A model generated the notes under the pieces. It was not told where the DNA came from and did not search any database. It was given only the letters and a program-made list of their open reading frames with translations. Below, piece after piece: positions 1-8,268 of a stretch of 50,751 nucleotides of DNA. Source of the DNA: Bacteroidota bacterium (GTDB lineage Bacteria > Bacteroidota > Bacteroidia > 2-12-FULL-35-15); the NCBI GenBank assembly GCA_947466965.1, contig CANIFU010000014.1:1-50751 (forward strand), in the 5' to 3' direction. The position numbers and the translations under genes are program-made. Each line of letters opens with the position of its first letter. Position 1 is the stretch's first letter.

Positions 1-197
1 GACCATCAACTCCCGTTGCTCCAACTAAACCTATAGGTCCAGTTGCACCTGTAGCACCGTCAATCCCTGTGGCTCCTGTTAAACCTGTAGGGCCTGTAGC
101 TCCTATTGGACCATCAACTCCCGTTGCTCCAACTAAACCTATAGGTCCAGTTGCACCTGTAGCACCGTCAATCCCTGTGGCTCCTGTTAAACCTGTA
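1..197. repeat. 108-bp tandem repeat inside the collagen-like gene
   Basis: Positions 1-89 and 109-197 are identical along the stretch that begins GACCATCAACTCC and ends CCTGTTAAACCTGTA. The period is 108 bp, a multiple of 9, so gain or loss of a unit preserves the Gly-X-Y register. The array continues beyond the left edge. Confidence 0.9.
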
Positions 198-652
198 CCA
201 GTTGGACCAGTTGGACCGGGAACTGTTGATGCGGGACCAGTTGCACCAACGGGACCATTCGCCGCATAAAAGGCATAGGGTACGCTCATCATCTGACTTG
301 CCCCCATGGATACAAATCCACTTCCATCGTTCACTTCCACTTCTAAGTATTTGTCGCCACTTCCCCAGTTTACAGCTGAAAACGTTCCTGATACAGGAAT
401 TCCCATTCCAATTTTCAAAGTAAACAAACCGTATACATTTGTAGTGACAGCATGCGTTTCCTGGTATACGGTTGTACCCGATGCCGTAATATCATGAATA
501 CTAAATCTTACTGTTATTGAAGTGCTTATCAGAGCTGCTCCGGAGTTATCGCGGGCTACTGCTTGGTAATTGATCCCTTGAGGTGGTGATTGTGCAAAAG
601 AAGAAATACCCATTAAAAGAAATATAAGCAAAACGTATAATGAATTTTTCAT
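1..652 (-). CDS. Collagen-like (Gly-X-Y repeat) secreted protein, 3' end beyond window
   Basis: Reading the minus strand from an ATG at 652 gives an open frame to the window edge (about 217 codons, no stop). It begins with a signal peptide ([21 protein letters not shown]), followed by a roughly 110-residue N-terminal domain of the type common at the head of Bacteroidota collagen-like and tail-fibre-like proteins (starts [16 protein letters not shown]). A Gly-X-Y tract rich in GATG and GPTG triplets follows from about residue 125. The last 200 bases hold a nearly exact 108-bp tandem duplication (36 residues, 12 triplets). The role is probably an extracellular fibrous surface protein; whether a sorting domain lies at the missing C-terminus cannot be seen. 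The plus-strand open frames here are antisense artefacts of the repeat. Confidence 0.85.
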
Positions 653-987: not shown

Positions 988-2778
988 TTAATAAGGGATT
1001 TTCAAACCTATGACAAGCATATCGTCCACTTGGTCAAGAGGACCGCGCCATTCTTCAATGGTTTTATTTAATAGTTCTTTTTGTTTTTCTATTGGCTCAT
1101 TATGCACTTGCATCAATAGATTTCGGAAGTTATTTACCATAAATTTTTTACCATTCGGCCCTCCAAATTGATCTGCAAATCCATCAGAAAAAATATAAAC
1201 TGAGTCACCTTTTTGTAACTGAAAAGTATGGTTGGTAAATTTCTTTTTCTCTTCGCCTAAAAATAATCCAATAGGGAACTTATCAGCCTTCGTTTGAATC
1301 AATTGTCCATCTCTGATAAGATAAAGAGGATTATAGGCTCCGGCATATTCTAATTCTAATTTTTTGAAATCGATTGTACAAAAAGAAATATCCATACCAT
1401 CTTTTGCTTGTGAATCTTCATGTCCATGATGCAATGTTTCACTAACTCCTTCATTAAGTCCATCTAAAATTTGGGAAGGAGTTGTTGTGTTATTACTGTT
1501 CACAACATGTTTTAGCAAGTTATAGCCAACAATTGACATAAATGCACCCGGTACGCCATGTCCGGTACAATCAACTGCTGCAAATAAAGCTTTACCATTT
1601 TTTTCATCCATCCAATAAAAATCGCCGGAAACAATGTCTTTCGGTTTATATAATACAAAAGAATTCGGTAAAACACGCTTTACCAAACTATCAGGAGGGA
1701 GAATTGCTTCCTGGATACGTTTCGCATACTTAATACTGTCGGTTACATGTTTATAAAGGACTTCTAATTCTTGATTTTGAGTTTCTATTTCCTCTTTCTG
1801 GCGAACAACTTGTTCCGTTCTTTCTATAACTTTTGCCTCTAATACTCGTTCATTTTCACGAAGATCTTCCCGCATTTTTAGTAATGCAGCACCTAAAGTA
1901 TCTTCATTACTTAATGCGCGGTAATCAGAATCAAAATTTCCAGAACCAACTTGTTTCGCAAATTCAGTCGTTCTTGCCATTCCATCAACCAAATCGTTCA
2001 ACGCAACGGACATATCACCTATTTCATCATTTCTATCTTTAATATGTTCAGAAGGAAGGACTCCACGTCCCATCATCATTAAGATCTTTTTCAATTGGTG
2101 AATCGGCCGGACAATTGTTCTAACAGTAAACATGGCGATAACAATCGCACCTAGGGGAAGGATAAAAAACAACCAAATAACTATCTTTTGAAGAGAACTA
2201 AAAGATTGTAACATTTGATCTGAATTGTCGAGCGCATTTTTATTTTGTTTGTCAATAAGTAAACTTAAATTTTCGTTAATGATATCATTTTTGGAATCCA
2301 ATTCCTCAAATGGCAACTGGGCTATAAATTTTATGTTGGGATCATTATAAGTATCAAATGAATTCAATGTTTCCATAACATCGTCTTCATAACTCTGAAA
2401 CATTTGTTCAATTAATGCTAAAATGCCGTCAATACTTTCTTGCTCTTCTTTGAACCAATTAACAGAATAGGATTTAATTTTTGATTTTAAAGCAGGGTAT
2501 TCATCATTAATAAGAATACGTAATGCTTTTTTATCGATTGCATCATCACCGATTTGAACGTAAAACCATTTATTTATTAAAAATTTGGAGCGAATAAGGA
2601 GATAATTTAATTCTTTAAGAGAAGCTAAAGAGGGATTGTATATTTCTGTTACCTGATCCGTTTTTTTACGGCTATCATTCAGTGTTATATTTGTAAGCCA
2701 GAATGCAACAATCACCAAAATTATGATTACGCCAAAGCCTAATCCTATCTTTCTACCAATTGTAAATCTTAAATTCAT
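988..2778 (-). CDS. Membrane HAMP-coiled-coil-SpoIIE (PP2C) serine phosphatase
   Basis: The 596-aa protein has a transmembrane helix near residues 12-32, an extracytoplasmic sensor region of about 160 residues, a second helix near 196-216, a HAMP domain (about 216-270) and a coiled coil (about 300-350). A C-terminal SpoIIE/RsbU-type PP2C domain follows from about 370. Metal-binding acidic motifs are visible: SGDFYW near 381, DCTGHGVPGAFMS near 400 and SDGFADQ near 529. Such enzymes dephosphorylate serine on anti-sigma-antagonist-like partners in response to an external signal. It is the last gene of a minus-strand operon, 25 bp after a TPR gene and downstream of a YfiR-like gene. This suggests that the periplasmic partners control the phosphatase. 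The substrate is not evident and no STAS or HPK partner lies nearby. Confidence 0.9.
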   Translation of the reverse strand: MNLRFTIGRKIGLGFGVIIILVIVAFWLTNITLNDSRKKTDQVTEIYNPSLASLKELNYLLIRSKFLINKWFYVQIGDDAIDKKALRILINDEYPALKSKIKSYSVNWFKEEQESIDGILALIEQMFQSYEDDVMETLNSFDTYNDPNIKFIAQLPFEELDSKNDIINENLSLLIDKQNKNALDNSDQMLQSFSSLQKIVIWLFFILPLGAIVIAMFTVRTIVRPIHQLKKILMMMGRGVLPSEHIKDRNDEIGDMSVALNDLVDGMARTTEFAKQVGSGNFDSDYRALSNEDTLGAALLKMREDLRENERVLEAKVIERTEQVVRQKEEIETQNQELEVLYKHVTDSIKYAKRIQEAILPPDSLVKRVLPNSFVLYKPKDIVSGDFYWMDEKNGKALFAAVDCTGHGVPGAFMSIVGYNLLKHVVNSNNTTTPSQILDGLNEGVSETLHHGHEDSQAKDGMDISFCTIDFKKLELEYAGAYNPLYLIRDGQLIQTKADKFPIGLFLGEEKKKFTNHTFQLQKGDSVYIFSDGFADQFGGPNGKKFMVNNFRNLLMQVHNEPIEKQKELLNKTIEEWRGPLDQVDDMLVIGLKIPY

Positions 2779-2803
2779 AAAGCTTTATGCTATTTATCTT
2801 TTC

Positions 2804-3691
2804 TTACTTTTCTATTTGCTCTAATTTTTGCTTAAATTCATTCGATTTCTCTTTTTCATTTAAACTAAAATAGATTCCGGATAAGCCCAACAATGTTTCT
2901 CTCTTATTCGGATCAAGAGAATATGCTTTTTCCATAAAAGGAAGAGAAGCTTTAAATAAGTTAATAGAATTATCTTGAACATCATTCAAGGCAACAATAT
3001 CTAAGTCATAATCAGATTGTCTGATCAGATTCACAGCTTGGTTATAATACAAAATACCCATATTATAATTTGCGTTAATATTGTTTGGATCGAATGTTAA
3101 CGCTTTATTATAAGAAGCTTTTGCCAGATTTAGAAAGTCGGCCTTACCTTGCCTGTCACCTTCATAAATTTGGGTATACACAGTTGCAATTGCATTAGAA
3201 AAATCGATTTCCTTTTGTTTGAAATTATCTGTTGAAGGATCAACCAAAAGGTAATACGCTCTAAATATGTCAAAATTCTTAATAGCAATTTTATAATCAA
3301 TCGTATCTAAACTTGCAGCAGCATCATTGTATAGTGTTGTAGCAAGATATTTTACATTCTTGATATTTTCAAGAATGTTTTCATATGATGTATCAATTGA
3401 AATTGATTTTTTGAAAGAGATCAATGCTTCAAGTCGTGATACAGATTCCTTGTTTGACTTCTCATTTTGATTATAAATCGTTTTGAATACAAAACCACGG
3501 ACATACCACGTCTGACCGTCTAACTGAGTTTCAGGGTGTAAAATGGCAAGATCGATATTCGCTTTAGCGCTGTCTAAATCCCCTTTTTGTAAGAACGTAT
3601 AAGCAGCGTCAACTCTCGACTGTTGCGCATTTAAAGATACTGCCCTAAAAAGCAATAATCCAAAAATAATGGTTCTTAGAATTTTTAACAT
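2804..3691 (-). CDS. Secreted TPR-repeat protein
   Basis: I place the start at the ATG at 3691 rather than the longer frame from 3739. From 3691 the protein begins with a clear signal peptide (MLKILRTIIFGLLLFRAVSLNA), and the longer start would overlap the upstream gene's stop at 3699. The protein is about 295 aa, largely helical, with TPR-like units; the clearest are near the C-terminal half (AKASYNKALTFDPNNINANY and AYSLDPNKRETLLGLSGIYF). It probably acts in the periplasm as a scaffold between the YfiR-like protein encoded 7 bp upstream and the sensor phosphatase encoded 25 bp downstream; that partnership is inferred from gene order only. Confidence 0.8.
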   Translation of the reverse strand: MLKILRTIIFGLLLFRAVSLNAQQSRVDAAYTFLQKGDLDSAKANIDLAILHPETQLDGQTWYVRGFVFKTIYNQNEKSNKESVSRLEALISFKKSISIDTSYENILENIKNVKYLATTLYNDAAASLDTIDYKIAIKNFDIFRAYYLLVDPSTDNFKQKEIDFSNAIATVYTQIYEGDRQGKADFLNLAKASYNKALTFDPNNINANYNMGILYYNQAVNLIRQSDYDLDIVALNDVQDNSINLFKASLPFMEKAYSLDPNKRETLLGLSGIYFSLNEKEKSNEFKQKLEQIEK

Positions 3692-3698
3692 GTATCTA

Positions 3699-4229
3699 TT
3701 ATTTAACTTGAACAGCCATATCAACAAGAGTTGATGCAACCTTTAGTTTGTACTTTTCAATATTTGATCTATTCAACTCAATTTTTTGTTTATTTCCATC
3801 AACAAAAAAATTTATTCCTGAACCTTTCGTTGCCAAACCTGATTTATCAGTTACAATTAAAGCACTTTTCCCTTTCAATTTCCCTAGTACATCATTTAAC
3901 TGAGAAGAGTTATCTGAAAGGATATAAACAATATGACATTTGGAGCAATCTGCTGGAGTTGAAACTAATTTTATTTCAAATTTTTGAGTACCAACCATTT
4001 TGGAAATTGCCATTTTATTAAGCTCTGAAAAAAGAGCAGGATTTGTTCCCAGAACACCAACCACAAAATTCCCTTCCTTATAAGAAGACGGCCACTCTAT
4101 GTATTTTGTGAAATTATAAATATAGATGGTCTTGATTTTTGCATTCGCTTCTTCCGATTGATCAGGTGATACAACTACCCATGAGGACATGACGATTACC
4201 GAAACAAATATGAAGAGTAGTTTTTTCAT
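3699..4229 (-). CDS. YfiR-family (DUF4154) periplasmic protein
   Basis: This 176-aa protein has an N-terminal signal peptide and the family hallmark near residues 35-48 (TIYIYNFTKYIEWP). A central beta/alpha region carries a Cys-x2-Cys pair (CSKC), and the C-terminal segment (GSGINFFVDGNKQKIELN) is typical of the family. In Pseudomonas, YfiR is a periplasmic repressor of the membrane diguanylate cyclase YfiN. In this operon the membrane partner encoded downstream has a PP2C output instead of GGDEF. This is the first gene of the operon, with TATATTTG on the minus strand about 55 bp upstream (4283-4290). Confidence 0.88.
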   Translation of the reverse strand: MKKLLFIFVSVIVMSSWVVVSPDQSEEANAKIKTIYIYNFTKYIEWPSSYKEGNFVVGVLGTNPALFSELNKMAISKMVGTQKFEIKLVSTPADCSKCHIVYILSDNSSQLNDVLGKLKGKSALIVTDKSGLATKGSGINFFVDGNKQKIELNRSNIEKYKLKVASTLVDMAVQVK

Positions 4230-4282
4230 TTATTGTTTATCAGGATGAATCAATTGGCAAGCTAATTTAATCCAGATAAATA

Positions 4283-4317
4283 CAAATATACAATTTTTCA
4301 GACAAAAATAAAGCAAA
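4283..4317 (-). promoter_or_regulatory. Candidate promoter of the YfiR-TPR-phosphatase operon
   Basis: On the minus strand a TAnnTTTG -7 element (TATATTTG) covers 4290-4283. A TTTG lies at 4317-4314, with 23 bp between them, at the long end of the usual Bacteroidota spacing. A second TATTTTTG lies at 4310-4303. The predicted leader is short, about 45-50 nt. Confidence 0.5.
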
Positions 4318-4419: not shown

Positions 4420-6114
4420 TTACAAACCAGCCAATACTTTTTCTTTAGGAAATTTAACGGTATAGGTAAAAACAATTTTCTTTGTTTCCTTCGGCTTTAA
4501 ATTAAATTTCCAATTCACTATCCCAGTCAATTCATCTAATTCGCCACCAGACAAATCAACCAAGGTGACACTAATTTCTTTTGTTTGTGAAACAGGAATT
4601 TGGTCTTGCAAATTAAAATTTGAGCTCGAAGATTTTGTATTTCGGATAGTAATTTCGTATGAAACTGTTTTAACTTTATCTTCTCCTATCAACTTTTCTT
4701 TTGTTTTATCTTTTAGTTTCACTCTTGTAACAACCATGTTTTTATCTCTTCCAAGTGTAAGATCCAATGTATCGGAAATTGAACTAGGATCGATATATGA
4801 TTCACCTACAAATGTCCCGTCAAAATAAATATTAGCTGAACCTGCAGCCAAATTTAACGCATCCCAATTTGTTATTTTCGCAACCAAAAATGCATCTTTA
4901 TCCATTTTTGGAGCAGCGAAATGAATATAATTTGCAGGTACTTCCTTTGTCTGTATAGCAACAAAATGTGTTTTTCCATCGCTTGGAATCGAATACGCCA
5001 GCTTTATTTCATATTCAACTGTTGTGATGTTTTCTTCTGCAACAGTAAAGTCAGCAGCAGTAAGTGAAGCAACTTCTGAATTCTGATTTTCAAATACTAA
5101 TGAACCACTGCTTTTACTTTGTGGAATGGCAGCATCTTTATCGTAAGCGGTGCGTTTACGATTGTAATCATTTGCATAGGGGTTGTAATAATTCAACAAC
5201 CAAGTATTTAATACAGGTTTTACATTACTTTGATTTGGACTAGCAGTAGATAGTTTTAATTTCACATCACTCCAGTCAATTCCTGTGCTCTGAAAAACCT
5301 GTGCTTTGTATGTTAATTGCATATTACCTCCAGCTCCTTTTGCTCGCAAATCATAGGATGGTGTCCAACCTGCATCCTGAAGCATGTAGTTGATATTCAT
5401 AGTTCCATTTGTTGCTAAATCAGCTGAAACAGTAACTATAACACGATAATTTGTTTCGTCTTTTACTATGTCTCCGGTATTTGAATTATATGTCTGCAAG
5501 GCAAACAGATTAGATTGTATATCCTGCTTTTTTATTTGTTTACGATATTCTTCTTTTTTTAATTTAAGTAACTCTGAATTTATATTATTCAATTTTTCAC
5601 GCAAAAAGGACAAGGCTTCTTTTACTAAATTTAAGGTATCCTTTTTTGTTTCACATTTTATAATCCTGTTATTAAGCAATGTATTTTTTTCAATATTTAA
5701 CGAGGCTTGTTTCGAAGAAATATCTTCAAGATCAAAATCAATCATAACCAATGAATCCTTCAACATTTTTACCTGCTTTTCATTTTTGGGATTATTGATT
5801 TGAACTGGATTTTTTGGCTCCGGATATTTTATACTATGCTGTACATCCATGATTACAAAATTTCCAAAACCACTTGCTTGAATACTTCTGGCATCAATAG
5901 TTGACTCTAATCCTTCAAAAACAAGTGTGGTAATTCCTGGGTTTACATTTACAAAAGAACTCCGATACACCTGGGCTCCTTGAGTAAAAACTGTTACATT
6001 CTCAATTTTTGATTTTACATTTTTATCATTAGTAGTTAATGCTTCTAACGAAATGCTACTTGCAATTATAGTCATAAATGCAGAAGCAATAAAAAATAAT
6101 TTTAGTGTTTTCAT
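4420..6114 (-). CDS. DUF4139/DUF4140 domain protein (mucoidy inhibitor MuiA-like)
   Basis: The 564-aa protein begins with a signal peptide. An N-terminal DUF4140-like domain (IENVTVFTQGAQVYRS near residue 37) is followed by a coiled coil near residues 120-205. The DUF4139 beta-rich domain runs from about 220 to the end and includes YMLQDAGWTPSYDLRA and a hydrophobic C-terminal strand set. The family is widespread and named for a gene whose overexpression suppresses mucoidy in Shigella; its biochemical role is unknown. It is likely periplasmic or surface-associated. It stands alone, with its own terminator, back to back with the sigma-factor gene on the other strand. Confidence 0.88.
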   Translation of the reverse strand: MKTLKLFFIASAFMTIIASSISLEALTTNDKNVKSKIENVTVFTQGAQVYRSSFVNVNPGITTLVFEGLESTIDARSIQASGFGNFVIMDVQHSIKYPEPKNPVQINNPKNEKQVKMLKDSLVMIDFDLEDISSKQASLNIEKNTLLNNRIIKCETKKDTLNLVKEALSFLREKLNNINSELLKLKKEEYRKQIKKQDIQSNLFALQTYNSNTGDIVKDETNYRVIVTVSADLATNGTMNINYMLQDAGWTPSYDLRAKGAGGNMQLTYKAQVFQSTGIDWSDVKLKLSTASPNQSNVKPVLNTWLLNYYNPYANDYNRKRTAYDKDAAIPQSKSSGSLVFENQNSEVASLTAADFTVAEENITTVEYEIKLAYSIPSDGKTHFVAIQTKEVPANYIHFAAPKMDKDAFLVAKITNWDALNLAAGSANIYFDGTFVGESYIDPSSISDTLDLTLGRDKNMVVTRVKLKDKTKEKLIGEDKVKTVSYEITIRNTKSSSSNFNLQDQIPVSQTKEISVTLVDLSGGELDELTGIVNWKFNLKPKETKKIVFTYTVKFPKEKVLAGL

Positions 6115-6230: not shown

Positions 6231-6238
6231 TAATTTTG
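6231..6238 (+). promoter_or_regulatory. Candidate -7 element of the sigma/anti-sigma operon
   Basis: TAATTTTG matches the Bacteroidota TAnnTTTG -7 consensus. A well-spaced -33 TTTG is not present. Because this element overlaps the ATG at 6236, translation more likely begins at the ATG at 6251, leaving a very short leader. Confidence 0.45.
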
Positions 6239-6250
6239 TATATACTGGAC

Positions 6251-6835
6251 ATGCAAAATTCTCTACTAAATAGTTATGATGATTTAAGATTGATTGCTGA
6301 ATACAAGCAAACAAATAACATTGCTATTGTAGCCGAATTGCATCGTAGGTATACCCATTTAATTTTCGGCGTTTGCATGAAATACTTAAAAAATGAAGAT
6401 GAAGCGCAGGATGCAAGTATGCAAATTTTCGAGAAATTAGTATTCGATCTAAAAAAACATGAAGTACAGCAATTTAAAGCATGGCTTCATATAGTATGCA
6501 AAAATTTCTGCCTAATGCAACTTCGCTCTGGGGCATCAAAACTAAAGCGAACCCAAGAAATGCAAAAAGATATTACTTCGTTTATGGAATCGGATTTTGA
6601 AATGCATCTTACTTCCGAAAACACAAAAGAAATGCAATTAACTTTTATGGAGGAATGCATTAAAGGACTAAACAAGGAACAAAAACTCTGTGTTGAGCTT
6701 TTTTTTCTAAAAGAAAAAAGCTATCAGGAAGTAACTGAATTAACCGAATACAGCATGAATAATGTAAAAAGCTATATTCAAAATGGTAAAAGAAATTTAA
6801 AAATTTGCATTGAAAATAAAAGTGCAAACAAATAA
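6251..6835 (+). CDS. ECF-type RNA polymerase sigma factor
   Basis: The protein is about 194 aa from the chosen ATG at 6251; a start at 6236 would add five residues but is overlapped by the probable -7 element. A region 2 domain lies near residues 25-90 (HRRYTHLIFGVCMKYLKNED, then the AWLHIVCKNFCLMQLR helix). The region 4 domain is at the C-terminus and includes the recognition helix segment YQEVTELTEYSMNNVKSYIQ. It directs RNA polymerase to a small regulon. Its stop overlaps by one base the start of a gene for an anti-sigma factor (TAATG junction), so the pair is translationally coupled. Confidence 0.9.
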   Translation: MQNSLLNSYDDLRLIAEYKQTNNIAIVAELHRRYTHLIFGVCMKYLKNEDEAQDASMQIFEKLVFDLKKHEVQQFKAWLHIVCKNFCLMQLRSGASKLKRTQEMQKDITSFMESDFEMHLTSENTKEMQLTFMEECIKGLNKEQKLCVELFFLKEKSYQEVTELTEYSMNNVKSYIQNGKRNLKICIENKSANK

Positions 6836-8268
6836 TGAACAAAGAAATTAAACATACAATTTATTCTTCGACTGATTGTCTCTCTGAAAAAATATTGTTT
6901 GAATACATCGACAATAAATTAATTCAGAAAGAAAGACATTTCGTAGAAAAACATTTGCTAGACTGTGAACTTTGTTGTGATGCGCTAGAAGGATTAGAAT
7001 TAGTAAAAGACAGAAGGCGAATTGACATTATTAAAGCAGCTATAAACAGGAGAATTCTAACATCTTCACTAAACGAAGCTAAGCTTGTTCCTTTTAACTT
7101 CAAACTAGCATTTTCTATTGCTGCTTCAATAGCTCTTTTAATTGGTGGAGTATTTTTATTTAACATGTTTTCTCTGAAAGAATCGGCACAAAGTGATATG
7201 GCCGAATTGAAATCAAAAGAAACTACTTCACTTACACCACTTGATCCGATTGACAATGCTAAAGATTCTCCATATGAACAAAAACCTGATGATGTTTCTG
7301 GAGATTCAAAAAATCTACAAAACAAATTAAGTCGTAGTAAAATCAAAGCCGATGATATTGCTTTATCAGAAACAAAAAAAAATCCGGGAGGTTACAACAA
7401 AACACCAATTAATAATAAAGGATTAACGTTTGAAAAATCGGTGAATGATCAAGAGACGGAAATTGGTTTAAAAGAAGAAGAAAATAAAATAGAAAGTGCG
7501 GAACAAATTCATTACACTTCAAGTCCTTCTGTTTATCAAACTATTGAAATAAAAAGCATAGTAACTGCTGAGGAATCTTCTATTTATCGAAATGCTGCTG
7601 CTGACCTTGAAAATGATTCTAATATCAATCCAACTATAAAAACAGAATCAAATGGAACAGGAAATTCTGGAAAACTACCTAGTCAAAATCAAAAAAATAA
7701 AGACAACAGTGTTAGAAATTCTGGTGATATTGCAAAAAAATCAGATAAAAATTCAAGAGAACAATCAGAAAATAAGGCAAAAGACAAAATTGTACTTACT
7801 GATGATTCAAGAGCAGACGAAGATGGGGATGTATTTACTGGAGGCTCAGTTGGATATGAGCCAAGAAACGCAGCAGGAGAATTAGATAAAAAAAAATCAG
7901 AAGTATTTAGTACAACTGTATCTACAAAATCTGTAACAGATTCAATTGAACAAATTTACACTATCGTTGAACAAATGCCTGAATACCCAGGAGGAAAGGA
8001 CTCAATGATGAAATTCATTTCAAAGAACTTTATCTATTCTAAAGTGAACCAAGAAAACCCATCCAATTCAACAAAAATTTATGTTCAATTTGTTGTGGGG
8101 AAAGATGGCGTTATACGCAATCAAAAAATACTTAAGGGAATCAACACATCACTGGATAAGGTAGCGCTTAGAGTAGTTGAAATGATGCCGAAATGGAAAC
8201 CAGGGAAACAAAATGGTGAACCCGTATCCGTATCATATGTTCTCCCTATACAATTGGAAATAAAATAA
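6835..8268 (+). CDS. Anti-sigma factor with a C-terminal TonB domain
   Basis: The 477-aa protein has an N-terminal cytoplasmic zinc-finger anti-sigma domain with an H-x3-C-x2-C motif (HLLDCELC, about residues 44-51). One transmembrane helix follows at about 88-110. A long, polar, low-complexity periplasmic linker (about 115-370) is rich in K, N, S and E. A TonB C-terminal domain ends the protein (about 374-477), with EYPGGKDSMMKFI and VQFVVGKDGVIRNQKIL as landmarks. By architecture it would hold the upstream sigma factor at the membrane and sense a periplasmic or outer-membrane event through the TonB-like domain. This differs from the FecR-type design, where sensor and TonB are separate proteins. 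Confidence 0.85.
   Translation: MNKEIKHTIYSSTDCLSEKILFEYIDNKLIQKERHFVEKHLLDCELCCDALEGLELVKDRRRIDIIKAAINRRILTSSLNEAKLVPFNFKLAFSIAASIALLIGGVFLFNMFSLKESAQSDMAELKSKETTSLTPLDPIDNAKDSPYEQKPDDVSGDSKNLQNKLSRSKIKADDIALSETKKNPGGYNKTPINNKGLTFEKSVNDQETEIGLKEEENKIESAEQIHYTSSPSVYQTIEIKSIVTAEESSIYRNAAADLENDSNINPTIKTESNGTGNSGKLPSQNQKNKDNSVRNSGDIAKKSDKNSREQSENKAKDKIVLTDDSRADEDGDVFTGGSVGYEPRNAAGELDKKKSEVFSTTVSTKSVTDSIEQIYTIVEQMPEYPGGKDSMMKFISKNFIYSKVNQENPSNSTKIYVQFVVGKDGVIRNQKILKGINTSLDKVALRVVEMMPKWKPGKQNGEPVSVSYVLPIQLEIK

Follow-up and report, generated by a model that had tools for sequence, protein, structure and literature searches.

A conserved three-gene unit of Bacteroidota that pairs a YfiR-like periplasmic protein with a predicted SiaA-type membrane phosphatase

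Results

The window analyzed here is the whole 50,751-nucleotide stretch of DNA of contig CANIFU010000014.1 (assembly GCA_947466965.1, a Bacteroidota bacterium), which is contig 14 of a 3.1-Mb draft genome that is 95.6% complete and consists of 128 contigs. Our subject is a row of three minus-strand genes, all within 988-4229, which are read in the order YfiR-like protein, tetratricopeptide repeat (TPR) protein, phosphatase. The first gene (3699-4229) encodes a secreted periplasmic protein of 176 amino acids (aa) with a DUF4154 domain, our proposed input subunit, the second (2804-3691) a secreted TPR protein of 295 aa, and the third (988-2778) a 596-aa membrane phosphatase with two transmembrane (TM) helices, a HAMP domain and a PP2C/SpoIIE domain. 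Intergenic gaps are minimal, with 7 bases between the first two genes and 25 between the last two. An earlier note on this DNA, made from the sequence letters, had described the same three products as encoded in one row, and we find all three in that order on the same strand. A longer reading frame for the TPR gene, from a TTG at 3739 rather than the ATG at 3691, was judged unlikely because many relatives start near the equivalent of that ATG.

The trio is likely transcribed as a single unit. A consensus scan detects a terminator-like hairpin of 18 pairs (4397-4357, minus strand) between the unit and the DUF4139 gene upstream, while the only minus-strand terminator-like sites within the unit are two of 5 pairs each, both inside genes; the region holds seven such sites against a mean of 2.5 in shuffled sequence. 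The leader, or promoter region (4230-4317, minus strand), contains a sole listed minus-strand promoter-like match, TTGCCA-N17-AACAAT (4260-4232), which agrees with the consensus at 9 of 12 positions. Promoter-like matches also occur within the unit, and the promoter evidence is weak because the region total of 23 is below the 27.4 found in shuffles.

The first protein has the fold of YfiR, as far as a predicted model can tell. It matches the Pfam family PF13689, "YfiR/HmsC-like," with an E-value of 1.1e-30 (107 bits vs. a cut-off of 24.9), and hydropathy reveals a hydrophobic N terminus; here and below, signal-peptide and coiled-coil calls come from reading the sequences and from hydropathy. 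An AlphaFold model made with 70 sequences, with a predicted local distance difference test score (pLDDT) of 90.1, has as its best match Pseudomonas aeruginosa YfiR (4zhu_B), with a Z-score of 18.5 and a root-mean-square deviation (rmsd) of 2.3 over 144 residues that are 17% identical. The next fold matches are half-domains of periplasmic binding proteins (3lkv, Z 14.0, rmsd 5.6; others lower), a likeness that would suit ligand sensing. Searching solved structures with the single sequence returned nothing useful, and a profile search ranked YfiR (E 0.055) behind a designed repeat protein (E 0.0004), which we took as a chance match, the fold comparison deciding for YfiR. The protein falls short of two NCBIfam models, the YfiR equivalog NF053586 (17.7 vs. 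85 bits) and the YfiR-like TOL_0243 (103.3 vs. 125 bits). In P. aeruginosa YfiR, F151 and E163 are implicated in binding of the partner (PMC4655355, PMC3375315); with F162, I169 and Q187 they belong to the proposed YfiN-binding surface. The positions that correspond to F151 and E163 do not vary across the 70 rows of our alignment, the equivalent of I169 is I, V, A or L, and that of Q187, a residue placed beyond the alignment end, is Val in 59 of 70 rows.

The TPR protein is less distinctive. Two Pfam TPR families match it above their cut-offs (PF13181, 33 bits; PF13414, 28.6 bits), its N terminus reads as signal-like, and Pfam finds no OmpA match in it.

As for the phosphatase, Pfam assigns residues 217-265 to HAMP (7e-8) and residues 395-594 to SpoIIE (2e-20), and two hydrophobic segments peak at residues 11-29 and 199-217. 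Its architecture reads as two TM helices enclosing a periplasmic four-helix bundle, followed by HAMP, a helical linker and a SiaA-type PP2C/SpoIIE domain. The receptor, the sensor part of which (about residues 29-215, including the second TM helix) is encoded by 2134-2694 on the minus strand, is modeled as a membrane-anchored four-helix bundle, not the PAS/CHASE8 type of YfiN. In the predicted structure (pLDDT 80) residues 7-237 are all-helical, with helices at 7-73, 81-105, 110-135 and 147-237, and the arrangement of the domains is unsure because the predicted template modeling score is 0.45. Pfam yields no CHASE8 or PAS match in this protein down to an E-value of 0.1, and the same library does find CHASE8 in a kinase at locus L070 (our labels for loci begin with L, those for genomes with G).

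By both sequence and modeled fold, the PP2C domain appears to be of SiaA type, much closer to SiaA than to RsbU. The top solved relative by sequence is SiaA-PP2C (6k4e) with an E-value of 2e-37, the next one reaching 5e-7, and fold comparison gives the same structure a Z-score of 33.7 over 245 residues, with the next row at 23.1. Fold matches cover mainly residues 361-596, apart from one model of a methyl-accepting chemotaxis protein (MCP) that spans residues 2-283 (Z 16.8). As a control, the RsbU-like SpoIIE protein of the same genome (L164) prefers Rv1364c (2.6e-9) and matches 6k4e at only 0.0055. In a PP2C tree, which holds no P. aeruginosa SiaA sequence and from which five short or empty rows and L062 were left out, the window phosphatase and 16 other SpoIIE proteins of the genome lie opposite L164 across a split with 100% support; L181, which is among the 16, sits on a long branch, and its position is uncertain.

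To see how far the trio extends, we used 99 genomes, that is, the genome of the window and 98 relatives. PF13689 occurs in 60 of them, at 100 places, 99 of which are not in the window. Leaving aside one of these 99, a 67-residue fragment in G015, we took the surroundings of the other 98 as 97 stretches and scanned their open reading frames (ORFs) with profiles of the window's proteins. Complete YfiR-TPR-phosphatase units are present at 40 of 98 DUF4154 loci, the window included. Adding seven units that are interrupted by a contig end, we find the unit in 46 of the 99 genomes, namely 29 of the 36 in the window's genus and 17 outside it. The trio keeps its order and strand in 16 of the 54 families sampled, which is far beyond chance. 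From a collection of named species genomes we kept the 80 best of 400 loci, and 72 of these have a complete unit, among them L224 of the cultured relative Acidiluteibacter ferrifornacis. This proportion is biased upward because the query alignment consisted of unit members and only the best loci were kept; seven of the other eight loci are cut or broken and one is L241. Here the gaps are again short (medians over 73 named loci of 1 base between YfiR and TPR genes and 25 between TPR and phosphatase genes), and a TPR homologue occupies the middle position in all 72 complete units. The two genome sets overlap, their union holding 87 distinct phosphatases. The closest named relatives of the YfiR-like protein (91-82% identity) are from metagenome assemblies labeled Chitinophaga pinensis or Bacteroidetes/Bacteroidota bacterium, species labels that may be wrong.

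A cleaner test than the named-collection count is the reciprocal one, from sensor to DUF4154. A profile of phosphatase residues 1-215, at an E-value of 1e-5 or better, finds 59 places in the 99 genomes, and at 51 of these a DUF4154 gene lies within 3.5 kb (upstream and on the same strand at 49), where gene number and genome size predict about 0.003 per place by chance.

The two activities are, moreover, united naturally in single proteins. Five intact genes (L131, L143, L149, L153, L159) and a broken sixth (L154) encode DUF4154 and SpoIIE in one polypeptide, a further L143 gene (L143:8968-10797) fuses DUF4154 to a guanylate cyclase domain, and an L158 gene (L158:6792-10010) fuses it to a PAS-GAF histidine kinase. 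All eight fusions read as having a TM segment about 140-170 residues past DUF4154, after a coiled-coil-like stretch, and in three of the eight an N-terminal hydrophobic segment exceeds the same threshold. Since the TM segment lies between the domains, DUF4154 is likely outside and the enzyme, SpoIIE included, inside. Elsewhere (L093, L142, L150) DUF4154 directly precedes a SpoIIE gene with no separate TPR gene, and the SpoIIE protein of L093 carries TPRs of its own. The same sensor domain is found with a hybrid histidine kinase output near DUF4154 at L082 (10 bases away) and L104 (one gene away), and at L070 a DUF4154 gene overlaps by one base a gene for a CHASE8-HAMP hybrid kinase, CHASE8 being the YfiN-type receptor domain. 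Given these fusions and kinase or CHASE8 neighbors, DUF4154 looks like a portable periplasmic input subunit. In a different context, DUF4154 genes of L084 and L115 adjoin TonB-dependent receptor plug proteins. The trio's conservation, the sensor linkage and the natural fusions show DUF4154 and SpoIIE to co-occur well beyond this locus, as the earlier proposal of a functional link needs.

In the DUF4154 trees the 47 rows of the unit make up one group (supports 94 and 98) and seven of the fusions, all but L158, make up another (supports 95 and 98); these trees are without L160, L136 yielded no DUF4154 ORF, and the "unit" rows include L120, which has YfiR and TPR genes only, as well as units cut by contig ends. 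With three long rows removed, unit and fusions fall on one side of a branch with a support of only 56. In the PP2C tree the fusions appear in more than one place, but a constraint that keeps them in one group with the unit is not rejected (p 0.10). These trees do not show separate origins of split unit and fusions.

What would such a phosphatase act on? The earlier note had suggested that the output controls a partner-switch pathway by dephosphorylation, and the genomes support this in a particular form. By Pfam, the source genome encodes SiaC three times and SiaB twice, in two siaB-siaC pairs and a lone siaC. SiaB exceeds the cut-off of the NCBIfam SiaB family (170.7 vs. 85), and the best solved matches of SiaC and SiaB are their P. 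aeruginosa namesakes (4.5e-20 and 9.7e-16). The alignment of one SiaC with the P. aeruginosa protein covers the NTSS motif and its T68, which is described as the phosphorylated residue of that protein in the part of PMC7647112 consulted. The motif is present in two of the three copies and the third reads as having serines there. All 46 unit-bearing genomes have SiaB, and all but one of them have SiaC (45 of 46). Outside the genus, SiaC is found in 17 of 17 genomes with the unit vs. 23 of 46 without it and in all 33 having at least eight SpoIIE genes, and the number of SpoIIE genes tracks that of SiaC genes (rho 0.87). All these figures, those for the 46 genomes included, are uncorrected for shared ancestry, and the highest SpoIIE counts per genome are lower bounds (at least about 29). 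SiaB-type kinase domains are seen as tandem pairs in frames of about 370-450 aa in G012, G019, G050 and others.

In relatives, the switch is physically linked to the unit. The gene order is SpoIIE-SiaB-SiaC-YfiR-TPR-phosphatase at L087, SiaB-SiaC-YfiR-TPR-phosphatase at L223 and L266 (the latter with unread bases inside siaC), YfiR-TPR-phosphatase-SiaB-SiaC at L263 and YfiR-phosphatase-SiaB-SiaB-SiaC at L142, while at L159 SiaC alone follows a DUF4154-SpoIIE fusion after 10 bases. These are six linked loci out of 178 scanned in overlapping sets, in a scan aimed at SiaB/SiaC rather than STAS/RsbW; at eight further loci, three of them seen twice, SiaB or SiaC lies about 3-4 kb away.

In known Rsb systems the substrates of SpoIIE-family phosphatases are STAS proteins, and the phosphatase of the unit might instead serve such a pathway, with an RsbV-like STAS antagonist and an RsbW-like kinase controlling a sigma factor. 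The genome does encode two STAS proteins and three HATPase_c_2 matches, one of them clearly RsbW-like. The coordinates put a SpoIIE domain some 2.4 kb away from one STAS gene, on the same contig and strand (C2), and another SpoIIE domain (C49) some 5 kb away from the RsbW-like gene. However, the 1.5-kb flanks of these three genes (two STAS, one RsbW-like) contain no SpoIIE gene, the PP2C domain ranks far nearer SiaA than RsbU in structure (with L164 as control), and the scan around YfiR-phosphatase genes, which was aimed at SiaB/SiaC rather than STAS/RsbW, links SiaB/SiaC, in one case SiaC only, to them. We therefore consider an Rsb-type output improbable. The search for STAS or anti-sigma partners that the earlier note had proposed does turn up such genes, but the likeliest switch is SiaB/SiaC.

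No GGDEF domain was found in the source genome, at its 95.6% completeness, and only 2 of the 99 genomes (G002, G006) have one. This bears on a further reading, that the YfiR-like protein is an ordinary YfiBNR component acting on a distant diguanylate cyclase and only incidentally adjacent to the phosphatase. While the fold match (Z 18.5) agrees with this, the near-absence of GGDEF and a gene order conserved across genomes already contradict it, unless a GGDEF gene sits in the missing few percent of the genome, and we give it next to no chance of being right. With no diguanylate cyclase found in the genome, SiaC probably acts on something else. Similar genes for ABC-2 transporters of about 1020 aa adjoin two of the three siaC genes (L161:4521-8791, L162:5531-9948), and proteins of 280-298 aa without a Pfam match are also encoded beside these two; such neighbors are candidate SiaC effectors in place of SiaD.

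Turning to the neighborhood, a gene for a collagen-like secreted protein (2-652, minus strand), whose start is in the window and which runs off its end, lies 335 bases downstream of the phosphatase gene on the same strand. Its N-terminal 135 aa, shared with downstream genes of relatives, match a downstream same-strand gene at 32 of 73 phosphatase loci, the window included and the others lying among L187-L266, and another large secreted protein family follows at 13 of 73. Copy number alone is unlikely to explain the collagen-like linkage, because this N terminus has 4 copies in the source genome and 0-17 in 41 genomes. The collagen-like gene is possibly an associated surface gene. An alternative reading is that the phosphatase is not under the control of the YfiR-like and TPR proteins and that the three are merely co-expressed, for instance in an envelope or surface-protein regulon with the collagen-like gene. 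The two secreted families at 45 of the 73 loci would fit this, as would the DUF4154 genes that stand beside TonB-receptor plug proteins and histidine kinases and the YfiR-TPR pair that L241 retains without a phosphatase. Against it stand the DUF4154-SpoIIE fusions, which unite both in one protein, the sensor domain lying near DUF4154 even with a histidine kinase output (L082, L104) and the reciprocal linkage at 51 of 59 places; mere co-expression is, in our judgment, unlikely.

On the other side, the gene upstream of the unit (4420-6114, minus strand) encodes a DUF4139/DUF4140 protein and is cut off from the unit by the hairpin. Beyond it, on the plus strand (6236-8268), lie two genes, one for an extracytoplasmic function (ECF) sigma factor and one for a protein that matches TonB_C and, weakly, zf-HC2; relatives of the second protein are found, by reading, upstream of the unit on the other strand at 11 of 68 loci.

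Discussion

Our findings make it probable that the locus is a periplasm-to-cytoplasm unit in which a YfiR-type input drives a SiaA-SiaB-SiaC switch. In this scheme, the YfiR-like protein would sense a ligand or some state of the periplasm and would act, as repressor or activator, on the periplasmic four-helix bundle of the phosphatase, with the secreted TPR protein assisting or tuning it. The signal would travel via the two TM helices, HAMP and the helical linker to the SiaA-type PP2C domain, which would dephosphorylate a SiaC-like protein and so oppose a SiaB-like kinase. Unphosphorylated SiaC would then act on an effector, probably one other than a diguanylate cyclase. We base this on gene conservation, linkage, fusions, domain identity, the presence of SiaB and SiaC together with their linkage in relatives, and the GGDEF domain that was not found; the YfiR-bundle contact, any sign of control, SiaC as substrate and the effector are inferences. 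A YfiR domain that is fused to its enzyme is not free to diffuse, and a pure sequestration of the YfiB-YfiR kind therefore cannot apply there; a conformational or ligand-binding role of YfiR fits both split and fused arrangements better.

Several observations weigh against this scheme. On the input side, the contact of the YfiR-like protein with the phosphatase is itself an inferred step, and YfiN-type binding cannot be assumed because the receptor is not of the PAS/CHASE8 kind. The equivalent of F162 (position 150) is Phe in only 48 of 70 rows and Ile in the window. The Cys145/Cys152 disulfide pair of P. aeruginosa YfiR is missing; the window protein has only Cys95 and Cys98, the latter present in 46 of 70 rows with no second commonly conserved Cys. 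Linkage is not universal either: 8 of the 59 sensor places have no DUF4154 gene nearby, although three of these match weakly (E 1e-7 to 7e-9) and two are at or near contig starts in genomes that have YfiR-TPR genes at the end of another contig, and 49 of the 100 DUF4154 places have no such sensor nearby. Agaribacillus aureus (L241) and G042 (L106, L120) have YfiR-TPR pairs without an adjacent phosphatase, the matching sensor-phosphatase of G042 being on a different contig near another DUF4154 gene of opposite orientation. On the output side, NCBIfam equivalog cut-offs are reached neither for SiaA (NF038263, 225.4 vs. 700 bits) nor for SiaB (NF038264, 95.4 and 56.7 vs. 225) nor for SiaC (NF038265, 104.7, 92.6 and 75.3 vs. 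150). The siaB and siaC genes of the source genome are on contigs other than that of the phosphatase, none of them in the window, and the 16 other SpoIIE genes that group with the window phosphatase could serve them instead. Common descent confounds the association with SiaC, and G020 (87% complete, eight SpoIIE genes) has the unit without SiaC. Both genomes with GGDEF carry the unit, and the STAS and RsbW-like genes mentioned above could offer the phosphatase other partners.

How does the unit relate to known systems? The YfiBNR system of P. aeruginosa (YfiR, YfiN/TpbB and YfiB; PMC4655355, PMC3375315) shares with it a YfiR-fold periplasmic DUF4154 protein and a HAMP enzyme with two TM helices. 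In contrast to YfiBNR, however, the output here is PP2C instead of GGDEF, the modeled receptor is a four-helix bundle instead of PAS/CHASE8, a TPR protein stands where the OmpA-like lipoprotein YfiB would be expected, and the cysteine pair of YfiR is gone. The earlier suggestion that one periplasmic sensing device has been joined to a different output holds for the YfiR half and for PP2C, but not for the receptor nor for a YfiB-like partner. The general idea was, moreover, published in 2012: Malone et al. (PMC3375315) describe a modular YfiR-YfiN[PAS] core with GGDEF-EAL, HPT, histidine kinase and MCP outputs. We share with that study the notion of a portable YfiR module with varied outputs, of which L070 is a comparable case, but the modules in it keep the PAS/HAMP core of YfiN, whereas here receptor and output both differ and some DUF4154 domains are fused; the word PP2C is absent from its main text.

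With SiaABCD of P. aeruginosa, as covered by the sections of PMC7647112 and PMC8457831 used here, the unit shares a HAMP-PP2C phosphatase, a SiaB-type kinase and the threonine motif of SiaC (two of three copies). It differs in that no SiaD cyclase was found in our genome, the periplasmic domain lies beyond the stretch best matched by the SiaA model, there are YfiR-like and TPR input genes, and SiaB and SiaC are encoded elsewhere in the genome. Searching the open-access literature, with subscription journals mostly outside its coverage, we found no publication, judged by title and opening of the abstract, linking YfiR to a SpoIIE/PP2C phosphatase. The new elements are an output of SiaA type together with SiaB/SiaC, a bundle receptor that replaces PAS, a TPR protein as partner, and the DUF4154 fusions.

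We can also tentatively picture, with rather less confidence than we have in the locus itself, a widespread form of envelope sensing in Bacteroidota, in which YfiR and TPR proteins signal through a four-helix bundle to a SiaA-type phosphatase and on to SiaB/SiaC without cyclic di-GMP (c-di-GMP), possibly controlling neighboring collagen-like surface proteins, and which would be one case of DUF4154 being swapped between phosphatases, cyclases and kinases.

Pseudomonas controls c-di-GMP through YfiR and, by a separate route, through SiaABCD, and here parts of both are joined in one module. Because 97 of the 99 genomes are without GGDEF, both parts are suggested to be independent of that messenger. 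Our analysis gives a conserved gene trio a testable function, suggests an input to one SiaA-type phosphatase among the many that Bacteroidota have and offers a way to ask what SiaC does without SiaD. In these bacteria, the unit probably links the cell envelope to a protein-phosphorylation switch.

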